Shown piece by piece: positions 3,919 through 20,771 of a stretch of 21,564 nucleotides of DNA. A model generated the notes under the pieces. The model was not told the origin of the DNA and made no database searches. It saw nothing but the letters and a program-made list of their open reading frames with translations. Source of the DNA: a virus. A program made the translations under genes and the position numbers. The stretch spans positions 1 through 21,564 of IMG/VR virus record IMGVR_UViG_3300035698_018032, one strand, 5' to 3'. Every line of letters starts with the position of its first letter. Position 1 is the first letter of the stretch.

Positions 3919-4377
3919 TCATTTCCTTGAACGAAGCTTTTCGTTTCGACATAGCTTGCACATTCTGGTCCTGTATTTTCCTTGGGGAGTGAAATCTTCG
4001 ATATCTTTCATTATGCCGCAAACCTTGCATTCTCTATTCTCTGGCTCTAGGTATTCAACACCCTTATTCCAAGGACGCTTGCCTTTGCGTGCTTCGCTCA
4101 TTGCTTTCCGATGAGATTCGCTCATCTTCTTGCCTTTCCACCATGACAATGGATTAACTGCAAATGTTTCTTTTGCATGACATGACCGACACAGGGTTTG
4201 TCCGTTTTTCAAACAGAACCTATGGTCCTCATGGTCTTTCCAAGGCAATATGTGATGTGCATGAAGGTCCTCCGTTGACCCACATTCTGTACACCTTCCA
4301 TCGTCTCTGGATATGACATCCTCACTCCAATCCCTGCATGCTTTGCATCTTCTGCTTTTTCCACCCAATCTAGACAT
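3919..4377 (-). CDS. HNH homing-type endonuclease
   Basis: 152 residues from the ATG at 4377, which has GAGGTG a few bases before it; an in-frame GTG two codons earlier overlaps that site and is less likely. The HNH nuclease core has C29-x-x-C32, the LHAHHILPW motif (His41/His42), Asn58 and C63-R-S-C66-H67, with the Cys pairs expected to bind structural zinc. Residues 80-106 (WKGKKMSESHRKAMSEARKG and the following RPWNKG) look like a NUMOD3-type DNA-binding motif known from phage homing endonucleases. Further CxxC pairs (C11/C14; C117/C120 with C140/C143) suggest extra zinc ribbons. Free-standing genes of this kind nick or cut related DNA and spread by recombination into it. It lies between two fibre genes and looks AT-richer than they do, which suggests a separate origin. 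Confidence 0.85.
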   Translation of the reverse strand: MSRLGGKSRRCKACRDWSEDVISRDDGRCTECGSTEDLHAHHILPWKDHEDHRFCLKNGQTLCRSCHAKETFAVNPLSWWKGKKMSESHRKAMSEARKGKRPWNKGVEYLEPENRECKVCGIMKDIEDFTPQGKYRTRMCKLCRNEKLRSRK

Positions 4378-4386
4378 ACTCACCTC

Positions 4387-12252: not shown

Positions 12253-12774
12253 TCATACCACATTCTCCACCCATTCTAACACAACATACGAAGTTGTGTA
12301 TCCTGTGTAATCCGCTGTCGTTATGACGTTTACGTTCGTCGCATCAACATTTATCTCGATATTATTTCCTGCCGTATCGACAAAAGGAAGAGGAATGAAC
12401 GAGGTGCTGGGATCCGTGGCTGTCCCGTAGATCCTGGTGAAGACAGTGTTTGCGGTAACGTTTATTCCGTGCGCAACACTGGTCGTGCCAGCATTGGGGA
12501 GGGCACCAAAATCAATCACAGTGCGAGATCCATAACGAAACTTGTTGGGATCTCCTGGAGTGAACCAGAGCTGACCTGTTACGGTGGAGGAGATATTCTC
12601 GCCGGCTGCGTTCAGTGAGGCATCTTGATACTGAGCAATCTCTCTGGCGTTTGTCGCCTGAGCGTTCTTGATGAAGTAGTCCGTCAAGATCAGCTGAGCC
12701 TCTTCCCAGTCATCAGGAATGATGATGTTAGGAGGTACGTACGGCCCGATGGACTGTGGAGGGTTAAAGCTCAA
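12253..12774 (-). CDS. Tail-region protein with TTG start
   Basis: 173 residues. The start is a TTG that overlaps the TGA of the nozzle-like gene (TTGA); GGGAGA lies about 9 bases before it. The N-terminus (MSFNPPQSIGPYVPPNIIIP) and the helix with DDWEEAQLILTDYFIKNAQA and NAREIAQYQD match a group of uncharacterised phage tail-region proteins that I recognise by pattern only. The middle describes a strand pair (GQLWFTPGDPNKFRYGSRTVID), and the end is beta-rich (TSVAHGINVTANTVFTRIYG, YVVLEWVENVV). Its length and coupling to the nozzle-like gene suggest a virion component that binds near the tail or anchors fibres. No enzymatic motif is visible. Confidence 0.6.
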   Translation of the reverse strand: MSFNPPQSIGPYVPPNIIIPDDWEEAQLILTDYFIKNAQATNAREIAQYQDASLNAAGENISSTVTGQLWFTPGDPNKFRYGSRTVIDFGALPNAGTTSVAHGINVTANTVFTRIYGTATDPSTSFIPLPFVDTAGNNIEINVDATNVNVITTADYTGYTTSYVVLEWVENVV

Positions 12775-15548
12775 TTAATCAATCTCCCTGCTGAGTCTGA
12801 CCAGATTATGATGGAATCTACGAGGACTTCGCTATTCGTAATGGCCGGTGTGAAAAGTTGGCGCTCCGTAAGAGAGAGGTCATACTCGAAAAACTGTGCG
12901 TCGACGCCGCAGTAGAACCTGTGCCAGCATTTGCTCTGACTTGGTGCATCGAACAGCTCAACTTCGGTCGAGAATACGTTGTTGAAGAACTCATCGTCAG
13001 TGTTGTTCACGGGCTCTGAGTCATTGTAGTCCACGTACACATTGCATGACACCTCTCCAGCTGAGGTGACGTCAGTCAGGAAATCGATGTACCCAAGGTG
13101 TGTCTTCTGTCCTACGTCCAATAGGTTGAACTTCTTAGACCTAGCAGAGAATCCCATGACTCGAGTCAGTGTTCCTGCGCCCATGTAGGTACGCACCTGC
13201 GCTACAGCTGGGATCACGTCCGCATCCAGATTCTGAATCTCACCTCCAGCTGACCATGCTGAAAATCCCGAGGAGTCGATGTTGATCGTCAAATTGTTGG
13301 GGTTAGCTGAATCGACCGCTACGATGATCCCATTCAGTCCGCTCATTTGCGTCATTCCTACAGAGATGTGGTCGATGTAGAAATGCTGCCCCGCTCCGAA
13401 GGTATGGCCCGGTGCTGTTACGACAGCTTTATCCGCCTGTGTGATGCCTGTGATAGCCGTTCTTGGCTTCTCAAAGAGGTCTAGGTTGTCCGCATCTACG
13501 CGTTCCACGGAGAACACTCGGTCGTTGAGCTCTAGACCACCAGTACCGATGATTCCTGATACCTTCACATACTCACTTGTCGAGCTAGGATCGGTGATCG
13601 TAGACGTAAGGTTGTGATCGGGGACGGTTAGTCTCGCAGATCCTGTCCCGCCAGTGACTGCCGTAATATGAAGGCTCGGGGAGTTAGAAACCTTCTGCTC
13701 TAGGTTGAGTACGAAACCCTGCTGATTTCCTGCGATCGTATTTGGATACTGAGACTGCAATTTGGCGGTAACCCAGGCGAAATTTGATTCGCTCCAGGTT
13801 TGGCCTGCGAGAGCGTCCCATGTGATGTCATTGAATCTCTGATATTCGCCAAATGTTGTGAAGCTGTCGGTGAAGATGGACCAGGTTAGATTCTGATAAT
13901 TAAACACCAAGACCCTATCAGGGAAGGTGGATTGGGTTGCGGCGTCAGGGAAGGTCCAGTACACCAGCTGCTCATAGAAATTACGCGTGCCGTGTACCCG
14001 AAGAGCTCCATCTGACTGATTGTTGTGGATGTTGAACACCTCGTCAGGGATGTTCTGATCAATCCGATCAACGTTGTTTCCGTTGCAGGAATTTATCGAC
14101 TTGTCTCCGACCGACAAGACACCCTGGTCGAACGCCACCATGGAGAATGTAGATTCGCATCCAAGCTCCGTGTTGATCCGCTCCCATGTGAAGGGAAGGA
14201 TCTCGTTACCAGTGTAGCGTAGTGCCCACGTCGATCGTTCGAATCCTACAATCAGTACGTCTCTCACAAACTGAGCAGAGATGATGTGCTCGTTCGTAGG
14301 GGCGTCGACATATCCACCGCGTCCTTTGACATCCGAGAGCCATTCGACAGTTGCGGTTGGGGCCACTCCTGCATTCACAGATGAGAAAGGTGCTCCATTC
14401 TGGGACCATCGGCACCTCTGTGGAAACTGCAAGCTGCCAAGAAGCGTCGCACCCTCATAGGTGTTCAAGGCTACCATTCGGCCTTTGTACGGAATCAGCA
14501 TAAGGCACTGATGCATCTCATCTGTACCGGATGTGGTCGGAAGAAAGTCGTGCCAGTCGATGCCGTCGTATATTCGAATTGGATCTCCCCCAGCACCAGA
14601 GAAGTTTGTCACCCAGAAATACTGATTGTTATCCGCTGACTGCCAGTAGTTTACACCCCAGAAGAAATTACTGTTAGATCCAGTCCATGTCGTCGGAGTG
14701 ACTGAAGCAAGCTCTTGGAACTGATTGGCCGTGTTGTCGAAGTTGTAGGCGTATATCGTATCAAACCCTATCGTTTGCTCGGCGTTGATATCGGAGAGTT
14801 CTCGGGTTGGGAGCCCCATAACGGGAAGACAGGGATAATAACCGTAAGCAGCCTCGACTGCGATGAGGTTGGCGGGCGTCGAACCAGCGAGAAACGTGAA
14901 ATTAACTTCGCCTGTGTCGTAATTGAGGAAGGTTCCATCTGCTGAGCCCCCTGATGCATACGATGTGAATAAAGTTGTATCAAGACTTACCGTGACGTCG
15001 ACACCCGCAGTGATAGCCGATACCGTGACTACCGTTTCGTTGATCTCCAGCATCCCTACGACACTTTCTATGAACAGCTTATTTCCTACTCCGAAGTTGT
15101 GCCCAGCCATGGCGATGACAGCAGATGCAGCTTGGGTAATTCCGGTGATTGTCACTGCAGGCTCGATGTCGTACACAGTCCCAGAGGTTCGAGTGAAATG
15201 TGCAGTCCCATCATCCGTGAATACGGTGTCGTTTCCCCCACCTTGATCAAATGTTATTTCAACCGAACTTTTGGCGAGTCCAGCGTCAGGCTCGAGAGCT
15301 CGTAATCCTGTGAGAATGTCTGCAACGTTGTAGTCGTTGGTACCATCAGCTGCCGCCAGGGCCTGAGCTGAGGGAACCCTCTTCAATCTTCCCAGGAGAT
15401 CATACCCTATGCGACGACGGAGGCGTCCTCTCCACTGATAGATATTCTCAAGCTCTTGATATGCATCATCAGAAAGCACGAATGCGTCCCGATCTTTCAC
15501 AAGACCCTTATCCTGGTAGGTAATCGTCGTAGGTGTGAATTTTCCCAT
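12771..15548 (-). CDS. Tail nozzle / DNA-stabilisation-like protein with FCCH-like modules
   Basis: 925 residues from the ATG at 15548. The frame runs nine codons further up, but the ATG at 15548 overlaps the upstream stop (TAATG) and has GGAGAG 8 bases before it. The N-terminus (YQDKGLVKDRDAFVLSDDAY then a Trp-Arg-Gly-rich basic patch WRGRLRRRIGYDLLGRLKR) is typical of large short-tail phage proteins. Residues about 132-204 are an FCCH-like module. Residues about 240-620 have repeated W/F/Y-rich beta blades (FFWGVNYWQSADNNQYFWVT, WALRYTGNEILPFTWERI, LVYWTFPDAA, NLTWSIFTDSF), as in the propeller-like nozzle proteins T7 gp12 and P22 gp10. Two more FCCH-like modules follow at about 620-775, then a C-terminal beta domain. 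A nozzle that closes the tail and holds packaged DNA is the likely role; homology was not tested. Confidence 0.58.
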   Translation of the reverse strand: MGKFTPTTITYQDKGLVKDRDAFVLSDDAYQELENIYQWRGRLRRRIGYDLLGRLKRVPSAQALAAADGTNDYNVADILTGLRALEPDAGLAKSSVEITFDQGGGNDTVFTDDGTAHFTRTSGTVYDIEPAVTITGITQAASAVIAMAGHNFGVGNKLFIESVVGMLEINETVVTVSAITAGVDVTVSLDTTLFTSYASGGSADGTFLNYDTGEVNFTFLAGSTPANLIAVEAAYGYYPCLPVMGLPTRELSDINAEQTIGFDTIYAYNFDNTANQFQELASVTPTTWTGSNSNFFWGVNYWQSADNNQYFWVTNFSGAGGDPIRIYDGIDWHDFLPTTSGTDEMHQCLMLIPYKGRMVALNTYEGATLLGSLQFPQRCRWSQNGAPFSSVNAGVAPTATVEWLSDVKGRGGYVDAPTNEHIISAQFVRDVLIVGFERSTWALRYTGNEILPFTWERINTELGCESTFSMVAFDQGVLSVGDKSINSCNGNNVDRIDQNIPDEVFNIHNNQSDGALRVHGTRNFYEQLVYWTFPDAATQSTFPDRVLVFNYQNLTWSIFTDSFTTFGEYQRFNDITWDALAGQTWSESNFAWVTAKLQSQYPNTIAGNQQGFVLNLEQKVSNSPSLHITAVTGGTGSARLTVPDHNLTSTITDPSSTSEYVKVSGIIGTGGLELNDRVFSVERVDADNLDLFEKPRTAITGITQADKAVVTAPGHTFGAGQHFYIDHISVGMTQMSGLNGIIVAVDSANPNNLTINIDSSGFSAWSAGGEIQNLDADVIPAVAQVRTYMGAGTLTRVMGFSARSKKFNLLDVGQKTHLGYIDFLTDVTSAGEVSCNVYVDYNDSEPVNNTDDEFFNNVFSTEVELFDAPSQSKCWHRFYCGVDAQFFEYDLSLTERQLFTPAITNSEVLVDSIIIWSDSAGRLIN

Positions 15549-16177
15549 TATTGAACTCTCCAGCAGATTACACACCCTCTAGTGAGGTTAGTCACTAGAG
15601 TGTTGTTCTGGTTCTTGAAATCAATTGAGATGCTCGTTGTTTTAACAACACTTGAATAGGTACCTGTATTGGTAACCTGTGCTATTACTGGGTTAGATGA
15701 GGAATCAAATCCACTTGCACTCCAGAAATAGTTGTTGTCTGGAAGAGCATTTGTGAATGTGATTACGTATCTACCGGTCCCACCTGGTCGAGCGATGCTT
15801 GCTACATTGAGGGCAGATCCCTGGACAGCAGCAGCAGCATTGAAATTGACTGAAACCACAGGAAGGAGTCCTGTGAAAATGCTCCCATCCTTCGTGATTT
15901 GGTATGATGATCCGTTCAATTCTGGCCTGGCGTAGAGCTCTGGATTGCCGGAATCGTCCTTGGCATAAATCAGGTACTCGTCCCCTTTCGATTCAGGGTC
16001 GTCGGCCTGCTCTACGAAGGTCACGAACTTGTGCTTGCCCTTGTCAGCTCCAGCGTCATCAAACGCCACGTGGTTCACTGCAAACTGGGTGTTGAGCTCC
16101 GTAAAGTTGGTCAGCAGATCACCCTGACTGACTGAAAGGTCATCGTTTGGCTGAGGTGAATCTGGATTGAATGTCAT
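15548..16177 (-). CDS. Tail-region protein, second of a tandem paralogous pair
   Basis: 209 residues, start overlapping the stop of the 257-aa gene (TAATG). It is the shorter paralogue: residues 1-103 align well with the first half of the 257-aa protein (shared SQxD, NF, HK, EQxxDP, KDxSG, LYxR and QIT positions) and residues about 110-209 form a similar C-terminal beta domain (YVITFTNALPDNNYFWSASG and SSVVKTTSISIDFKNQNN). The C-terminal domain resembles the phage beta domains that describe a solved response over a measured strand pair, but I cannot name it. Retention of both copies, end to end, suggests two related structural parts rather than redundancy. The stop overlaps the next start (TAATG). 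Confidence 0.65.
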   Translation of the reverse strand: MTFNPDSPQPNDDLSVSQGDLLTNFTELNTQFAVNHVAFDDAGADKGKHKFVTFVEQADDPESKGDEYLIYAKDDSGNPELYARPELNGSSYQITKDGSIFTGLLPVVSVNFNAAAAVQGSALNVASIARPGGTGRYVITFTNALPDNNYFWSASGFDSSSNPVIAQVTNTGTYSSVVKTTSISIDFKNQNNTLVTNLTRGCVICWRVQ

Positions 16178-16950
16178 TAGGCCACCGTATATGCTTGAAA
16201 GATTATTCTTTGGAGTCTGCCTTTGATCGGTGAAATCGGAGTCACTGTCTGAGTGTCTGAGGGTATGTTGAATCCGACAAGCCTGAATGAGCTTGCTGTG
16301 ACGGTGCTTGCGTATGTAGCTGAGTTGTAAGGCTGAATTTGGACTACCTTGTTGCTGCTCGAGGTACTTGTTCTCAAGTTATTGAAACTCTGCACTATCC
16401 ACATGTAGTCGGCTGTTGGTAACGCCGTCGTATAGGCGAGTGTCCAGTCAGCTTTCACGTTTTGGTTATTCACCAACGCAACATTGGGTGTGACCGACGC
16501 AACATTCATAGACATGGGAGCTTTTATCGTATTCCCATCTGCATCCAGCTCTTCCCTCTCAAGGATGTTGCCCTGGAAGTCAAAGACAACGAATGCCCTA
16601 AGCACCAGCCCTCCAACGATGATTCCTTTGCCTTCCGTGATCTGATTGACGTCCCCGTCAGATTCTTCCCTGTAGTATAGATCACTGGAACCGCTGTTAT
16701 CCTTCGAGTAGAGTCCGATCTCGTTGGCTAGAGTCGTGGGATCTGAAGATTGCTCGATCAGAGTCGTCTTTTTGTGGCCGCCACGCTCGTCGTCTTCTGG
16801 ATTATTCAGGGGGATGTGATCGCCGACATTGGCATTTTCGGTTGGCGACTTGCCCCAGACGTCGTAGGTTGTCTTGAAATTACCGATCATATCTCTTTGA
16901 GACTGACTGATGAAATCAGTGCCTTGGGGAATCGAGGGTTTGAAAACCAT
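16177..16950 (-). CDS. Tail-region protein, first of a tandem paralogous pair
   Basis: 257 residues. The ATG shares its first base with the stop of the adaptor gene (TAATG) and has a strong GGAGG inside that gene. The N-terminal half matches the following 209-aa protein step by step: MVFKPSIPQGTDFISQSQRD with MTFNPDSPQPNDDLSVSQGD, GGHKKTTLIEQSSDP with GKHKFVTFVEQADDP, YSKDNSGSSDLYYR with YAKDDSGNPELYAR, and QITEGKGI with QITKDGSI. The C-terminal half also keeps the order NVAS, a beta strand, ALP-x-x-(D/N)-Y-x-W and SATYAS or TGTYSS. This copy is longer, with an insertion around 105-140. The fold seems beta-rich. Likely a tail or neck component; the exact job is unknown. Confidence 0.65.
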   Translation of the reverse strand: MVFKPSIPQGTDFISQSQRDMIGNFKTTYDVWGKSPTENANVGDHIPLNNPEDDERGGHKKTTLIEQSSDPTTLANEIGLYSKDNSGSSDLYYREESDGDVNQITEGKGIIVGGLVLRAFVVFDFQGNILEREELDADGNTIKAPMSMNVASVTPNVALVNNQNVKADWTLAYTTALPTADYMWIVQSFNNLRTSTSSSNKVVQIQPYNSATYASTVTASSFRLVGFNIPSDTQTVTPISPIKGRLQRIIFQAYTVA

Positions 16951-17930
16951 TATCGTCCTCCGAATCCGCCACCGAATGAGGAGTATCCGGTCTGCTGTGT
17001 GTAGATTGTTGCCGTTCGCTCAGGAGCCTGCTGGGTAGCAGTCCTGTACAGTACCAGATTCTCCTGGTGCTTGAAAAAGGGCATGATATTCTGGATGGCA
17101 TCCATGTCCTGTCTGTCTTGCAGAACCTTGATCGCTGATCCATAGGCTATGTACTGCCACCACTGCTTCACGTCAGGTGTGTTTGAGCTGCTGTGATCGG
17201 AAGCGCTTAGGAGCTGCGTTGGTGTCTGGTACACCTCTATCGCTACACGGTACACCTTATCAGGAACAGGCCTCAAGACGAAATAGTCATCGAAGAACAG
17301 GATCGCATTTGGTCTGCTCGCCTGGTAGGGAGATGTCCTCGCTAAGACGTTCTCTGTGCTTGCTATGGCCGCCGTGAAGGTAATCGTGGATACACCTGTC
17401 ACGTAGTTGATGCTGCCTGTCAGGGCCAGTTCTGTGACGTTGTCGATCCAGGTTCCTGAACTGCTCGTTGGAGAGTCTGGCACATCCCGCGCTGACATCG
17501 TCGATCCGTCAGTAGCCACTGCAGATACGGTGACCTGCCTCTTGAGCACAGGGATAGCAGAAATCGTGAATGCATAGGGACCAGCGCCACCGTCTCCGGC
17601 GACTGCAGTCTGCTGGGTGCTGATTCTTGGGTAAATCTTGAAGAATTCGTCCTGAGACTGAGAGTAGAATGACTCATATCCGTCTATGTAGACAGGGGGG
17701 AGGACGGCCTGGTACTTGTCTGTGTCGAATGGGTACTGGTCTTCGTTCGCTACCGTGAAAAACTCCAAGTTGGAATGGAGGTTCCAAATCTTCAGAGCTG
17801 CCGGGAAATCTTGCTCGTAAAAAACATCGATGTATTCTTCTAGGTCTGCATCGCTCAGCTGATTTATCGACGGACTGGCAGTGAGTCTCCGTACCTTCTT
17901 TTTGATCTGCGCTAGCGTGCTCAAACTCAT
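16950..17930 (-). CDS. Head-tail adaptor, P22 gp4 / T7 gp11-like
   Basis: 326 residues. The N-terminal part (LAQIKKKVRRLTASPSINQL, then DADLEEYIDVFYEQDFPAAL and IWNLHSNLEFFT) is a helical stretch typical of phage adaptor proteins that dock on the portal and extend the neck. A beta-rich segment at about 105-205 lies between it and the C-terminal helical part (VYRVAIEVYQTPTQLL, DVKQWWQYIAYGSAIKVLQD, MPFFKHQENLVLYR). Helices split by a beta insertion match the T7 gp11/P22 gp4 layout. The protein ends in a Gly-rich tail (SSFGGGFGGR). The start at 17930 lies 3 bases after the stop of the previous gene, with GGGGTAAG before it. Its place between head and nozzle-like genes agrees with an adaptor. 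The family call rests on pattern recognition, not alignment. Confidence 0.62.
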   Translation of the reverse strand: MSLSTLAQIKKKVRRLTASPSINQLSDADLEEYIDVFYEQDFPAALKIWNLHSNLEFFTVANEDQYPFDTDKYQAVLPPVYIDGYESFYSQSQDEFFKIYPRISTQQTAVAGDGGAGPYAFTISAIPVLKRQVTVSAVATDGSTMSARDVPDSPTSSSGTWIDNVTELALTGSINYVTGVSTITFTAAIASTENVLARTSPYQASRPNAILFFDDYFVLRPVPDKVYRVAIEVYQTPTQLLSASDHSSSNTPDVKQWWQYIAYGSAIKVLQDRQDMDAIQNIMPFFKHQENLVLYRTATQQAPERTATIYTQQTGYSSFGGGFGGR

Positions 17931-17933
17931 CTC

Positions 17934-18278
17934 TTACCCCGTTAAGCTTGTGTTGTTATCTGTAATCCCCGTAATGGGAGTTACTTGTGCTTGCGTGAAT
18001 GAAGGATCACTTGCTGTGGTATACGGCACTGCTGGCTCGACAAACGCACTTAGGGCACTGGTATCAAGATCAACGGTGAACTGATCATCTGCTGGGACGG
18101 CGACCACTGTCGCTTTGGCATACTCAACCGTCATCCCGTATATTTCAGGCACTAACAAGCGAACCACCTGAGCTACGGAATATCCGTGGTCTTCGGTCGT
18201 TGTCACCACTGCCTGTGCAGCATTGGTAACTGCCGAAATCAACCTTCGTCTAGGCTGGAAATTCGACAGGATTGCCAT
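17934..18278 (-). CDS. Small neck-region protein, one FCCH-like beta module
   Basis: 114 residues, ATG at 18278 sharing its A with the TGA of the gene upstream. Almost the whole protein is one beta module: residues about 12-85 carry LISAVTNAAQAVVTTTEDHG, a Y-S-V-A-Q-V-V-R turn, IYGMTVEYAKATVVAV and FTVDLDTSALSAFV. The same pattern occurs twice in the 320-aa protein and about three times in the 925-aa protein. The C-terminal tail (VTPITGITDNNTSLTG) looks like the first strand of a further, incomplete module. Lying between the head genes and the adaptor, it may decorate the head or join head to tail. That is inference; the family resemblance is what I see. Confidence 0.6.
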   Translation of the reverse strand: MAILSNFQPRRRLISAVTNAAQAVVTTTEDHGYSVAQVVRLLVPEIYGMTVEYAKATVVAVPADDQFTVDLDTSALSAFVEPAVPYTTASDPSFTQAQVTPITGITDNNTSLTG

Positions 18279-18793
18279 CAGACCACCGCAAATGTTGTAG
18301 ATTCAAAGTTCATTCGCGATTGCTTCTTGCCTAGTCGGTCTATCGTAGGGTTGCCGTCAGGTCCAAGAACGAGTGAATGAACGGGAAAGCTGCAGTTTTG
18401 GTTCAAGTGTCTAGCGACTGCCAAAGGCACTTCGTAGGTCTCACCATCAAACATGGTGTATATCTTCGTCTGGTCCCACTTGTACTTTCGGAAGGAAAAC
18501 TTCACGTTTCCACCAATCGGCTCTAGGCATCGGAACACGCCCTTGACCATCCGGCTCTCTTCCTTCCACATATTGTAGACCTTGTCATCGTCGGATGAAT
18601 CGCACCGCAGGCTATCCTTCACTTCCTTCTGCTTCTTCCATTCCTTGAACTCCTGAATGTCCTTGTCGGAGAATTCGAAGGATTGGGCCTTCTTTTCGGC
18701 TACTTTTTTCTCTGGTGAACTTTTCGCCGTATCGATAGCTGGAGCCTCTGATTTTTGGGATTCTGCCGGTGCTTCGTCTTTAGTGTACGCCAT
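18278..18793 (-). CDS. Unknown head-region protein with charged N-terminus
   Basis: 171 residues, ATG at 18793 with AAGGA 6 bases before it. Residues 1-60 are Lys/Glu/Ala/Ser-rich and probably disordered, followed by a helix (SDKDIQEFKEWKKQKEVKDS). Residues about 75-171 look like a small folded domain with YNMWKEESRMVKGVFRC, VKFSFRKYKWD, the strand pair IYTMFDGETYEVPLAVARHL and LVLGPDGNPTIDR. There are only two or three Cys and no recognisable catalytic motif or membrane segment. I have seen similar short proteins near the capsid gene in other phages but know no function. Position between capsid and adaptor suggests a head-completion or minor head protein. The stop codon overlaps the next start (TGATG). 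Confidence 0.6.
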   Translation of the reverse strand: MAYTKDEAPAESQKSEAPAIDTAKSSPEKKVAEKKAQSFEFSDKDIQEFKEWKKQKEVKDSLRCDSSDDDKVYNMWKEESRMVKGVFRCLEPIGGNVKFSFRKYKWDQTKIYTMFDGETYEVPLAVARHLNQNCSFPVHSLVLGPDGNPTIDRLGKKQSRMNFESTTFAVV

Positions 18794-18816
18794 TCTAGGT
18801 CCTTTGTGTTGGAAAT

Positions 18817-18840
18817 GGGGAGGACACGATTGCCCCCCCC
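18817..18840 (-). terminator. G-rich hairpin between the 320-aa and 171-aa genes
   Basis: In the 54-base gap, the minus strand has a run of eight G (18840-18833) that can pair with CCTCCCC (18823-18817) through seven pairs, one of them G-U, around a loop of about 10 bases. The following ATTTCC is a poor T tract. It may limit read-through, protect the mRNA 3' end, or mean little. Confidence 0.28.
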
Positions 18841-18847
18841 ACTAAAT

Positions 18848-19810
18848 TTACTCAGCTAGCGTGTATCCGCTAGACAGTGCTTCCCAGTACATCACATCAG
18901 AGGCGCTTCCGCCAGGACCATCGGCCCCACCACCAAGTTCCATGACGATCTGTGCTGTGTTGTCCATGGCTCCAGAAAGAACACTTGCAATCTCACCAAC
19001 AGGAACGATGTGCGCCGGTGTAACACCAGCAGCAGCGACCGCAGAAGTTGGGAATGCAAACGCAGTGAACCCAGACGCATCAATGTCAAGACTGACAGTG
19101 TTGTTCGCTGTGCTTACCGCTGTGATCTCACCGATGAGGTCATTCGCTTCGACCATTCCGAAATCGGAAGAGACCTTAACACGAATTTGCTCACCGACCG
19201 CCATTCCATGCGTAACGGCAAGAGTAACAACCATCGGATTGGCTGCTGTGATAGCAGTAATTCGATTAGCCTGTGGGCTATAGATTGGGTTGTTAGGTAC
19301 CTTGCGCACGAATCCAGCGGTCGAATCAGCTGCATACGCTGTCATGGCTGCGTAGCCAAGATCAAAGTTATTAGCGGTAACTGCCGTGACTGTGTAATCA
19401 TATCCAGCAATCTGGAGGCAGGCAGTGGTTCCGTAGATACGGACCCTGTCGTTAACACTATAACCGTGAGCTGTAACCGTTACTCGGTTAAGAGAAACGT
19501 CTACAAAAGTGCTGGCCATAGCTTGCTGTGCACCCAGTACCTGACTGGATTGGTCAACTCGGGTGAATCCACCAGAGGTGATGACTTCCAGGTCCAGTCC
19601 ATTAGCAGCGTTCTGCTTGGTAAACATGAATCCAGCACCGGCAGCAAGGCCGCGCTGCCACTCAAATTTACACCCTCGCCCAGTTGCCTGAGTAGTAGCG
19701 CTTTGCGTATAGTTCCAAACACGAAATACATCGAAGTCAGAACGCAGAGCGATATTCTTAGCAGCTCCATCACTAGTGAAAGAACCTGAGGCAATCAGTT
19801 GGTCAGCCAT
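18848..19810 (-). CDS. Virion-associated protein with two FCCH-like beta modules
   Basis: 320 residues from the ATG at 19810; the frame extends upstream into the capsid gene, but the ATG at 19810 has a perfect GGAGG 6 bases before it. Residues 1-100 form a beta-rich domain (FTSDGAAKNIALRSDFDVFR onwards). Residues about 104-168 and 183-256 are two copies of a module with the pattern I-T-x-(I/V)-T ... (A/V)-H-G-(Y/M)-x-V-(N/G)-(D/E)-x-(V/I)-R, then a loop and a V-T-A-V-(T/S)-x-A-N-N strand. This pattern resembles the domain that databases label ubiquitin-activating E1 FCCH in many phage proteins; ubiquitin chemistry is not implied. Position directly after the capsid gene suggests a head decoration, stabilising or other abundant virion protein. 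This role is inferred. A C-rich hairpin and a 54-base gap follow. Confidence 0.6.
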   Translation of the reverse strand: MADQLIASGSFTSDGAAKNIALRSDFDVFRVWNYTQSATTQATGRGCKFEWQRGLAAGAGFMFTKQNAANGLDLEVITSGGFTRVDQSSQVLGAQQAMASTFVDVSLNRVTVTAHGYSVNDRVRIYGTTACLQIAGYDYTVTAVTANNFDLGYAAMTAYAADSTAGFVRKVPNNPIYSPQANRITAITAANPMVVTLAVTHGMAVGEQIRVKVSSDFGMVEANDLIGEITAVSTANNTVSLDIDASGFTAFAFPTSAVAAAGVTPAHIVPVGEIASVLSGAMDNTAQIVMELGGGADGPGGSASDVMYWEALSSGYTLAE

Positions 19811-19820
19811 ATTTTCCTCC

Positions 19821-20771
19821 TTATAGTGACAGCGTGCATCGCAGGTTGATGATCCACGCATCGTTCGTGATGCGAGGTACTTCGGCAAATTTGTAGCCAA
19901 CCGATGCATTCAGAGCCAGCGGCCCGTCGTAGATCGGTGGTCGGTAGATGAACTGAGCCGAGTAGCCGTCCTGCTCGATGCAGGCGTATGCTTCCATACC
20001 GGCAACGAAGCAGTTGTAGACTGTAGCTCCATTCAGGGAGGCGTTCGCATCGCTAGAACCGATTGAGCTCAAGAGCCAACGGGTGTTAGAAATGGAACCC
20101 CACTCAGGACGTAGGACTTTGTCTTGGTTTGGATACTGAGACTTGGAAATGAATCCAGTCACACGCTCCAAATCACCGATCAATGACGTGTTAGCCATTA
20201 CGAAATAGCTGTCACGAATTGGCGCGGTACCAAACTTGTCCTCGCCTTCGATGCTATCCGAAATCGTGTACGCATCAGAAGATGCCAAAGTCTTGATGAC
20301 TTCGTCAACGTCGGAGCGTGCGAGCTCGGTAGGATTATCGCCATTAGTTCCGCCAACACTGTTGATGAAGGAAGCTGTAGCCGCAAGCATGTTGCGAGTA
20401 AGCTCATCCTCAGTCTGTCTGAGCGAAACGCCAAGACGCTTTGTAGTCTCATTTAGAACTGGATCTTGAGACTGTAAAGTAACTTGTTCGTTAAGATTTA
20501 CAAAACTCCCGTAGAAGTCCATCTTCGCATCAATGTCAATCGCTGTCATTTGCTGCGCAGCTGGATAAATACCGCTATTTCCCAGAGGCACAGTGGCTGT
20601 GGCAAGAGGGTTGTAGCGGCGCATCCTCAGAGTAGTTCCACCATTCCTAGGCATGTTTTTCAGCATGGCAGGAATCTTGTGGATAAGATTTGGAACGGCT
20701 ACCGAGAGCAATTTGTAGCTGAAGCTCTGCTGTACCGGCGCCGGAAGAACTGACGAAGTCGTTATCGCCAT
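19821..20771 (-). CDS. Major capsid protein, N4-gp56 family
   Basis: A 316-residue protein that I recognise as the N4-gp56-like major capsid family, HK97-type shell proteins of about this length found in many phages. Supporting features are the N-terminal region with PNLIHKIPAMLKNMP and GGTTLRMRRYNPL, the helical DELTRNMLAATASFINSV segment, the region describing the sample sites FGTAPIRDSYFVMANTSLI, and the C-terminal stretch ending GYKFAEVPRITNDAWIINLR. The protein would form the icosahedral shell assembled on the scaffold encoded upstream. The ATG at 20771 has an AAGGAG 7 bases before it. Its own leader and strong ribosome binding site fit the high expression a capsid protein needs. The next gene follows after only 10 bases. 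Confidence 0.88.
   Translation of the reverse strand: MAITTSSVLPAPVQQSFSYKLLSVAVPNLIHKIPAMLKNMPRNGGTTLRMRRYNPLATATVPLGNSGIYPAAQQMTAIDIDAKMDFYGSFVNLNEQVTLQSQDPVLNETTKRLGVSLRQTEDELTRNMLAATASFINSVGGTNGDNPTELARSDVDEVIKTLASSDAYTISDSIEGEDKFGTAPIRDSYFVMANTSLIGDLERVTGFISKSQYPNQDKVLRPEWGSISNTRWLLSSIGSSDANASLNGATVYNCFVAGMEAYACIEQDGYSAQFIYRPPIYDGPLALNASVGYKFAEVPRITNDAWIINLRCTLSL

Follow-up and report, generated by a model that had tools for sequence, protein, structure and literature searches.

The FCCH domain (PF16190, E1_FCCH) is a domain of ubiquitin-activating E1 enzymes. The nozzle protein gp17 of SU10 is a propeller with add-on domains described as Ig-like, and its residues W839, W847 and W857 lie in the loop that docks the (short) tail fibre (PMC9509320). 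The nozzle cores of Pa223 and P22 are without FCCH-type modules. In gp41, which forms the tail tube of phage T1, residues 16-94 lie outside the tube and were called Ig-like by the authors (PMC11945409). The occurrence of one domain across phage proteins of different functional classes has been reported as domain mosaicism (PMC10684548); the main text of that paper makes no mention of FCCH, and a search of the available literature for FCCH in phage virions found no paper.

The window analysed here is a whole 21.6 kb (21,564 nt) record of an uncultured, short-tailed virus. Its virion genes form a minus-strand series in the order N4-gp56 capsid, 320-aa, 171-aa, 114-aa, probable adaptor, two fibre-like proteins and 925-aa protein (Table 1), and related contigs repeat this order. 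The names 'head' and 'neck' for the 320-aa and 114-aa proteins are putative, with gene order as their sole basis. The fibre-like 257-aa and 209-aa proteins (15548-16950, minus strand) each retrieved relatives of the other and have the look of a tandem paralogue pair; in some relatives there is one fibre-like gene, not two.

Table 1. Features of the gene series and of the modules A-F in the window.
Feature	Coordinates	Strand	Evidence
Major capsid protein, N4-gp56 family	19821..20771	-	TIGR04387, 2e-43, above cut-off
320-aa protein, directly after capsid gene, tandem modules A and B	18848..19810	-	model pLDDT 85.8
Module A, 320-aa protein residues about 92-172	19295..19537	-	leave-one-out 7e-8; UBA6 FCCH superposition
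Module B, 320-aa protein residues 183-256	19043..19264	-	leave-one-out 1e-12; strand order as in A and F
114-aa protein, essentially one module and the subsequent strand	17934..18278	-	alignment with 320-aa protein
Module C, 114-aa protein residues 12-85	18024..18245	-	leave-one-out 2e-13; family profile against PDB E1 FCCH 7e-6
Probable head-tail adaptor, without module	16950..17930	-	SU10_adaptor PF24175, 4e-4, below curated cut-off
925-aa tail nozzle protein, beta-propeller	12771..15548	-	structural Z and sequence profile matches
Module D, nozzle residues 132-204, nested within another small beta domain	14937..15155	-	leave-one-out 4e-11; PF16190
Three-tryptophan loop W577, W585, W592, just before E	13773..13820	-	invariant in 48 nozzles
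Module E, nozzle residues 625-695, kept in most nozzles	13464..13676	-	class profile at least 96.5% to others
Module F, nozzle residues 697-774, adjoining E, only in some relatives	13227..13460	-	leave-one-out 4e-13

The preliminary description had placed six segments of one small beta module in the 320-aa, 114-aa and 925-aa proteins. All six were confirmed at these places, with boundaries within a few residues. Segment E had been placed 2 bases off frame and was corrected (Table 1), and in the structural model copy A starts at about residue 91 (base 19540), earlier than the proposed base 19501. To search the profile back, leave-one-out HMMs were each built from the other five segments and run on the 21 window proteins. 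The five copies A, B, C, D and F were recovered, and copy E was missed with the window segments alone (0.9). With a profile built without A- and E-class sequences, copy A scored 27.3 bits, the top score of 10,500 shuffled proteins being 10.4, and copy E scored 0.0 bits. The profile of E-class sequences from nozzle orthologues aligned with every other class profile across some 60 columns, with probabilities of 96.5-98.8%, and pairwise comparison of the orthologue profiles of all positions gave 96.5-99.8% throughout. Copy E therefore belongs to the module family, a membership established only via the nozzle orthologues, the copy itself being too diverged for detection alone. An iterated profile over related loci matched all six copies (A 3e-16, E 2e-7) with 0 matches among 2,688 shuffled proteins; this result is in part circular for copies A and E, because both may have been drawn in. 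The remaining window proteins yielded no seventh copy. The six segments are divergent, homologous copies of one small FCCH-type beta-barrel.

The likeness to FCCH, also proposed at first sight of the sequence, was borne out by a PF16190 match, by the scores of E1 enzymes against the phage profile and by the superposition of module A on UBA6. The 925-aa protein matched PF16190 with 31.8 bits, above the curated cut-off of 29.5; the 320-aa and 114-aa proteins of the window stay below the cut-off, and among relatives of the 320-aa protein, 27 of 60 matched at E 0.01 or better. With the phage module profile, human UBA6 reached 51 bits and human UBA1 46 bits, scores as high as those of certain copies in the window. 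The residue pattern first noted in the segments is thus a general signature of the FCCH fold. Against PDB structures of the FCCH domain from animal E1 enzymes, the family profile of the 320-aa protein gave 0.0017 and that of the nozzle 0.008 (114-aa family in Table 1). The model of module A superimposed on the UBA6 FCCH (residues 212-292) with Z 11.8 and an rmsd of 1.5 A over 77 residues; within the 320-aa protein, the structural comparison extended mainly over residues 89-175. Module A is the sole copy superimposed, and B, E and F were assigned to the FCCH fold by strand order in the models only. In the AlphaFold nozzle model no fold was resolved for module D (pLDDT about 30-48).

The phage module thus resembles the FCCH of E1 enzymes in both sequence profile and fold, and the likeness extends to the G-M and N-G positions. 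It differs in its setting: the phage carriers are virion proteins with no adenylation or cysteine domain around the module, and a ubiquitin role is not implied. Pfam and NCBIfam scans of the three carrier proteins found neither the adenylation nor the catalytic cysteine domain of E1, and the proteins are not classed as ubiquitin-activating enzymes. The result explains why domain labels of ubiquitin enzymes appear on unrelated virion genes in such phages.

Residues 16-94 of T1 gp41 also superimposed on module A (Z 10.4). The T1 domain, the one solved virion case considered here, has the same fold, is inserted close to the N-terminal end of its carrier and faces outward; the carrier is, however, a siphophage tube protein, and the domain was named Ig-like. 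A further fold likeness was found to the barrels of two endosialidases, that of phi92 (Z 8.5) and NF (Z 7.4). The endosialidase beta-barrel domain is reported to bind sugars. By analogy, the modules could bind sugars of the host envelope and help adsorption, and one relative of the 114-aa protein matched End_beta_barrel (PF12195) at 0.016; the window proteins gave no match to this family. Tail tubular proteins of one Vibrio phage are reported to bind a host receptor (PMC7241545), which would fit such a role. However, Z values of 7-8.5 may reflect a common arrangement, no binding residues were identified, and the residues common to the copies reflect the fold itself. Sugar binding is considered rather unlikely.

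The 925-aa protein has the beta-propeller core of podovirus nozzles (P22 gp10, T7 gp12, SU10 gp17) and belongs to the P22 gp10/SU10 type. Its model matched Pa223 with Z 28.1 (483 residues, 3.2 A), SU10 with Z 25.3 and P22 gp10 with Z 22.1, the propeller taking up the structural matches listed, and its sequence profile matched the nozzles of SU10, Pa223 and VP1 at up to 3e-19. Its three loop tryptophans align with W839, W847 and W857 of SU10 gp17, and judged from this alignment a trimeric tail fibre probably docks at the loop. A nozzle and a likely fibre dock are thereby identified for an uncultured phage group. The propeller, the add-on domains and the three-tryptophan loop, a probable dock in the 925-aa protein, are common to SU10 gp17 and the 925-aa protein; FCCH identity of the SU10 add-on domains is not implied here. 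Among isolated phages, Vibrio phage MZH0603, Pelagibacter phage HTVC034P and podovirus ctype202 have a nozzle or tail tubular B-type protein that carries the FCCH module, in one to three copies. In the examined regions of these three phages there were no module-bearing 320-aa or 114-aa genes, and a sequence search of the isolated-phage collection with the two genes gave no match outside the module itself.

The distribution of the module was investigated in a census of about 175 related loci with relaxed and strict thresholds. At the relaxed threshold, two modules were detected in all 121 members of the 320-aa family; under the strict threshold this fell to 111. In two relatives, two genes of the 320-aa type lie in tandem (L075:7498-9555 and L136:1303-3284). 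Among 98 nozzles at the relaxed threshold, one module was found in 64, two in 12, three in 12 and none in 10. The usual single copy of the nozzle is at position E, and D and F occur in some relatives only. The conserved positions are therefore the 320-aa pair and nozzle E, and the optional ones are nozzle D and F.

The site of the D-type module also varied. In near relatives of the window it lies within another small beta domain; in six loci (L008, L005, L040, L108, L049 and L039) it lies ahead of that domain, in L027 it is further downstream in the nozzle, and nozzles of L045, L051 and L022 have an empty site. The beta domain split by module D (15156-15250 and 14841-14936, minus strand) carries the motif GT(I/F)xNYxTGxV and is present in the nozzles of aligned relatives.

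In a tree of the copies, grouping followed position and not genome, with few columns and many open forks. A single clade of the window's six copies was rejected (p-AU 1e-7), as was one of its three nozzle copies (p-AU 0.002). A single clade of D copies was not rejected (p-AU 0.90), and separate origins of D are argued from the differing nozzle sites because the tree alone does not reject one clade. These results bear on the suggestion that the module marks domain shuffling within the operon. Its first part stands: spread by duplication and insertion into virion proteins is supported, with copies across three nearby genes and with empty sites. One domain is thus found across proteins of different functional classes, as in the reported mosaicism. 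Recent exchange, in which modules would hop among the genes of one operon and keep copies of the same genome alike, does not stand. It would account for several copies in adjacent genes and for D-type modules at different nozzle sites between relatives, but the two rejected clades and the clustering of same-position copies across genomes make it scarcely credible. The shuffling is old.

The 114-aa protein was compared with the 320-aa protein. It aligned to residues 174-277, past the limits of the module (hhalign 99.7%, 107 columns). On this alignment, the 114-aa protein is a stand-alone paralogue of the second module of the 320-aa protein with its subsequent strand. Each of the 91 members of the 114-aa family has one module; at least one of them (L025:1-366) is the truncated end of a 320-aa gene. 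Distinct contigs on which the 320-aa, adaptor and nozzle genes all occur numbered 83, and 24 of them had no 114-aa gene, which is no prevalence figure because the 114-aa family itself had served as the query for many of the loci. The contigs missing it usually have no space for one; L008 has a 900-base gap. Presence of the gene showed no linkage to nozzle copy D (Fisher p 0.28; 83 contigs, kinship ignored).

The module had also been proposed as a common docking unit, by which head, neck and tail proteins would join each other or one partner via the same barrel. The module is common to three adjacent virion genes whose order is conserved across the group, and the 320-aa protein has two modules in every case, two points in favour of docking. 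However, the residues common to the copies are the general FCCH signature found in human UBA1 and UBA6 as well, and this signature, the absence of the 114-aa gene from some contigs and its lack of linkage to D speak against a common partner. The copies have also diverged independently at each position, and they come and go independently. The docking proposal was not upheld and is regarded as quite improbable.

Taken with the history of the copies, the modules are homologous FCCH barrels that spread by duplication and insertion and have position-specific histories, and they probably serve as self-contained surface decorations without an assumed common partner. By analogy with the outer domain of the T1 tail tube, an outward-facing add-on barrel would be the likeliest role. 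As a self-contained domain, the barrel would fit a loop of a carrier without disturbing that carrier. It may project outward from the particle surface and so decorate head and tail, where it would add bulk, stability or weak contacts with the host surface. Module D lies in the variable N-terminal part of the nozzle, which by chain order would be the region of the Ig-like nozzle-tip domains of SU10, and E and F come after the probable fibre-dock loop.

Several results weigh on the surface-decoration reading. The 320-aa family retains both modules throughout, so that they may have a structural function and not simply a decorative one. The role is weighed down by the lack of a resolved fold for module D in the model, and the argument for position-specific copies by the small tree, with its few columns and open forks, and by the single origin of D that was not rejected. 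A broader scheme, in which one barrel is a general virion building block and the capsid-adjacent pair, the budded-off protein and the one to three nozzle copies make up one coordinated outer layer extending from the head to the tip of the tail, has a low probability. Related loci with and without D, F and the 114-aa gene provide a natural series for probing the function of an add-on barrel.

Two further observations were made. Two Lokiarchaeota MAGs include, possibly by binning error, contigs that carry relatives of the module gene cluster (L178 and L179), and a host assignment is not implied. A 154-aa ORF at 3919-4383 (minus strand) has Cys/His pairs and by eye is HNH endonuclease-like, with long repetitive fibre-like ORFs around it.
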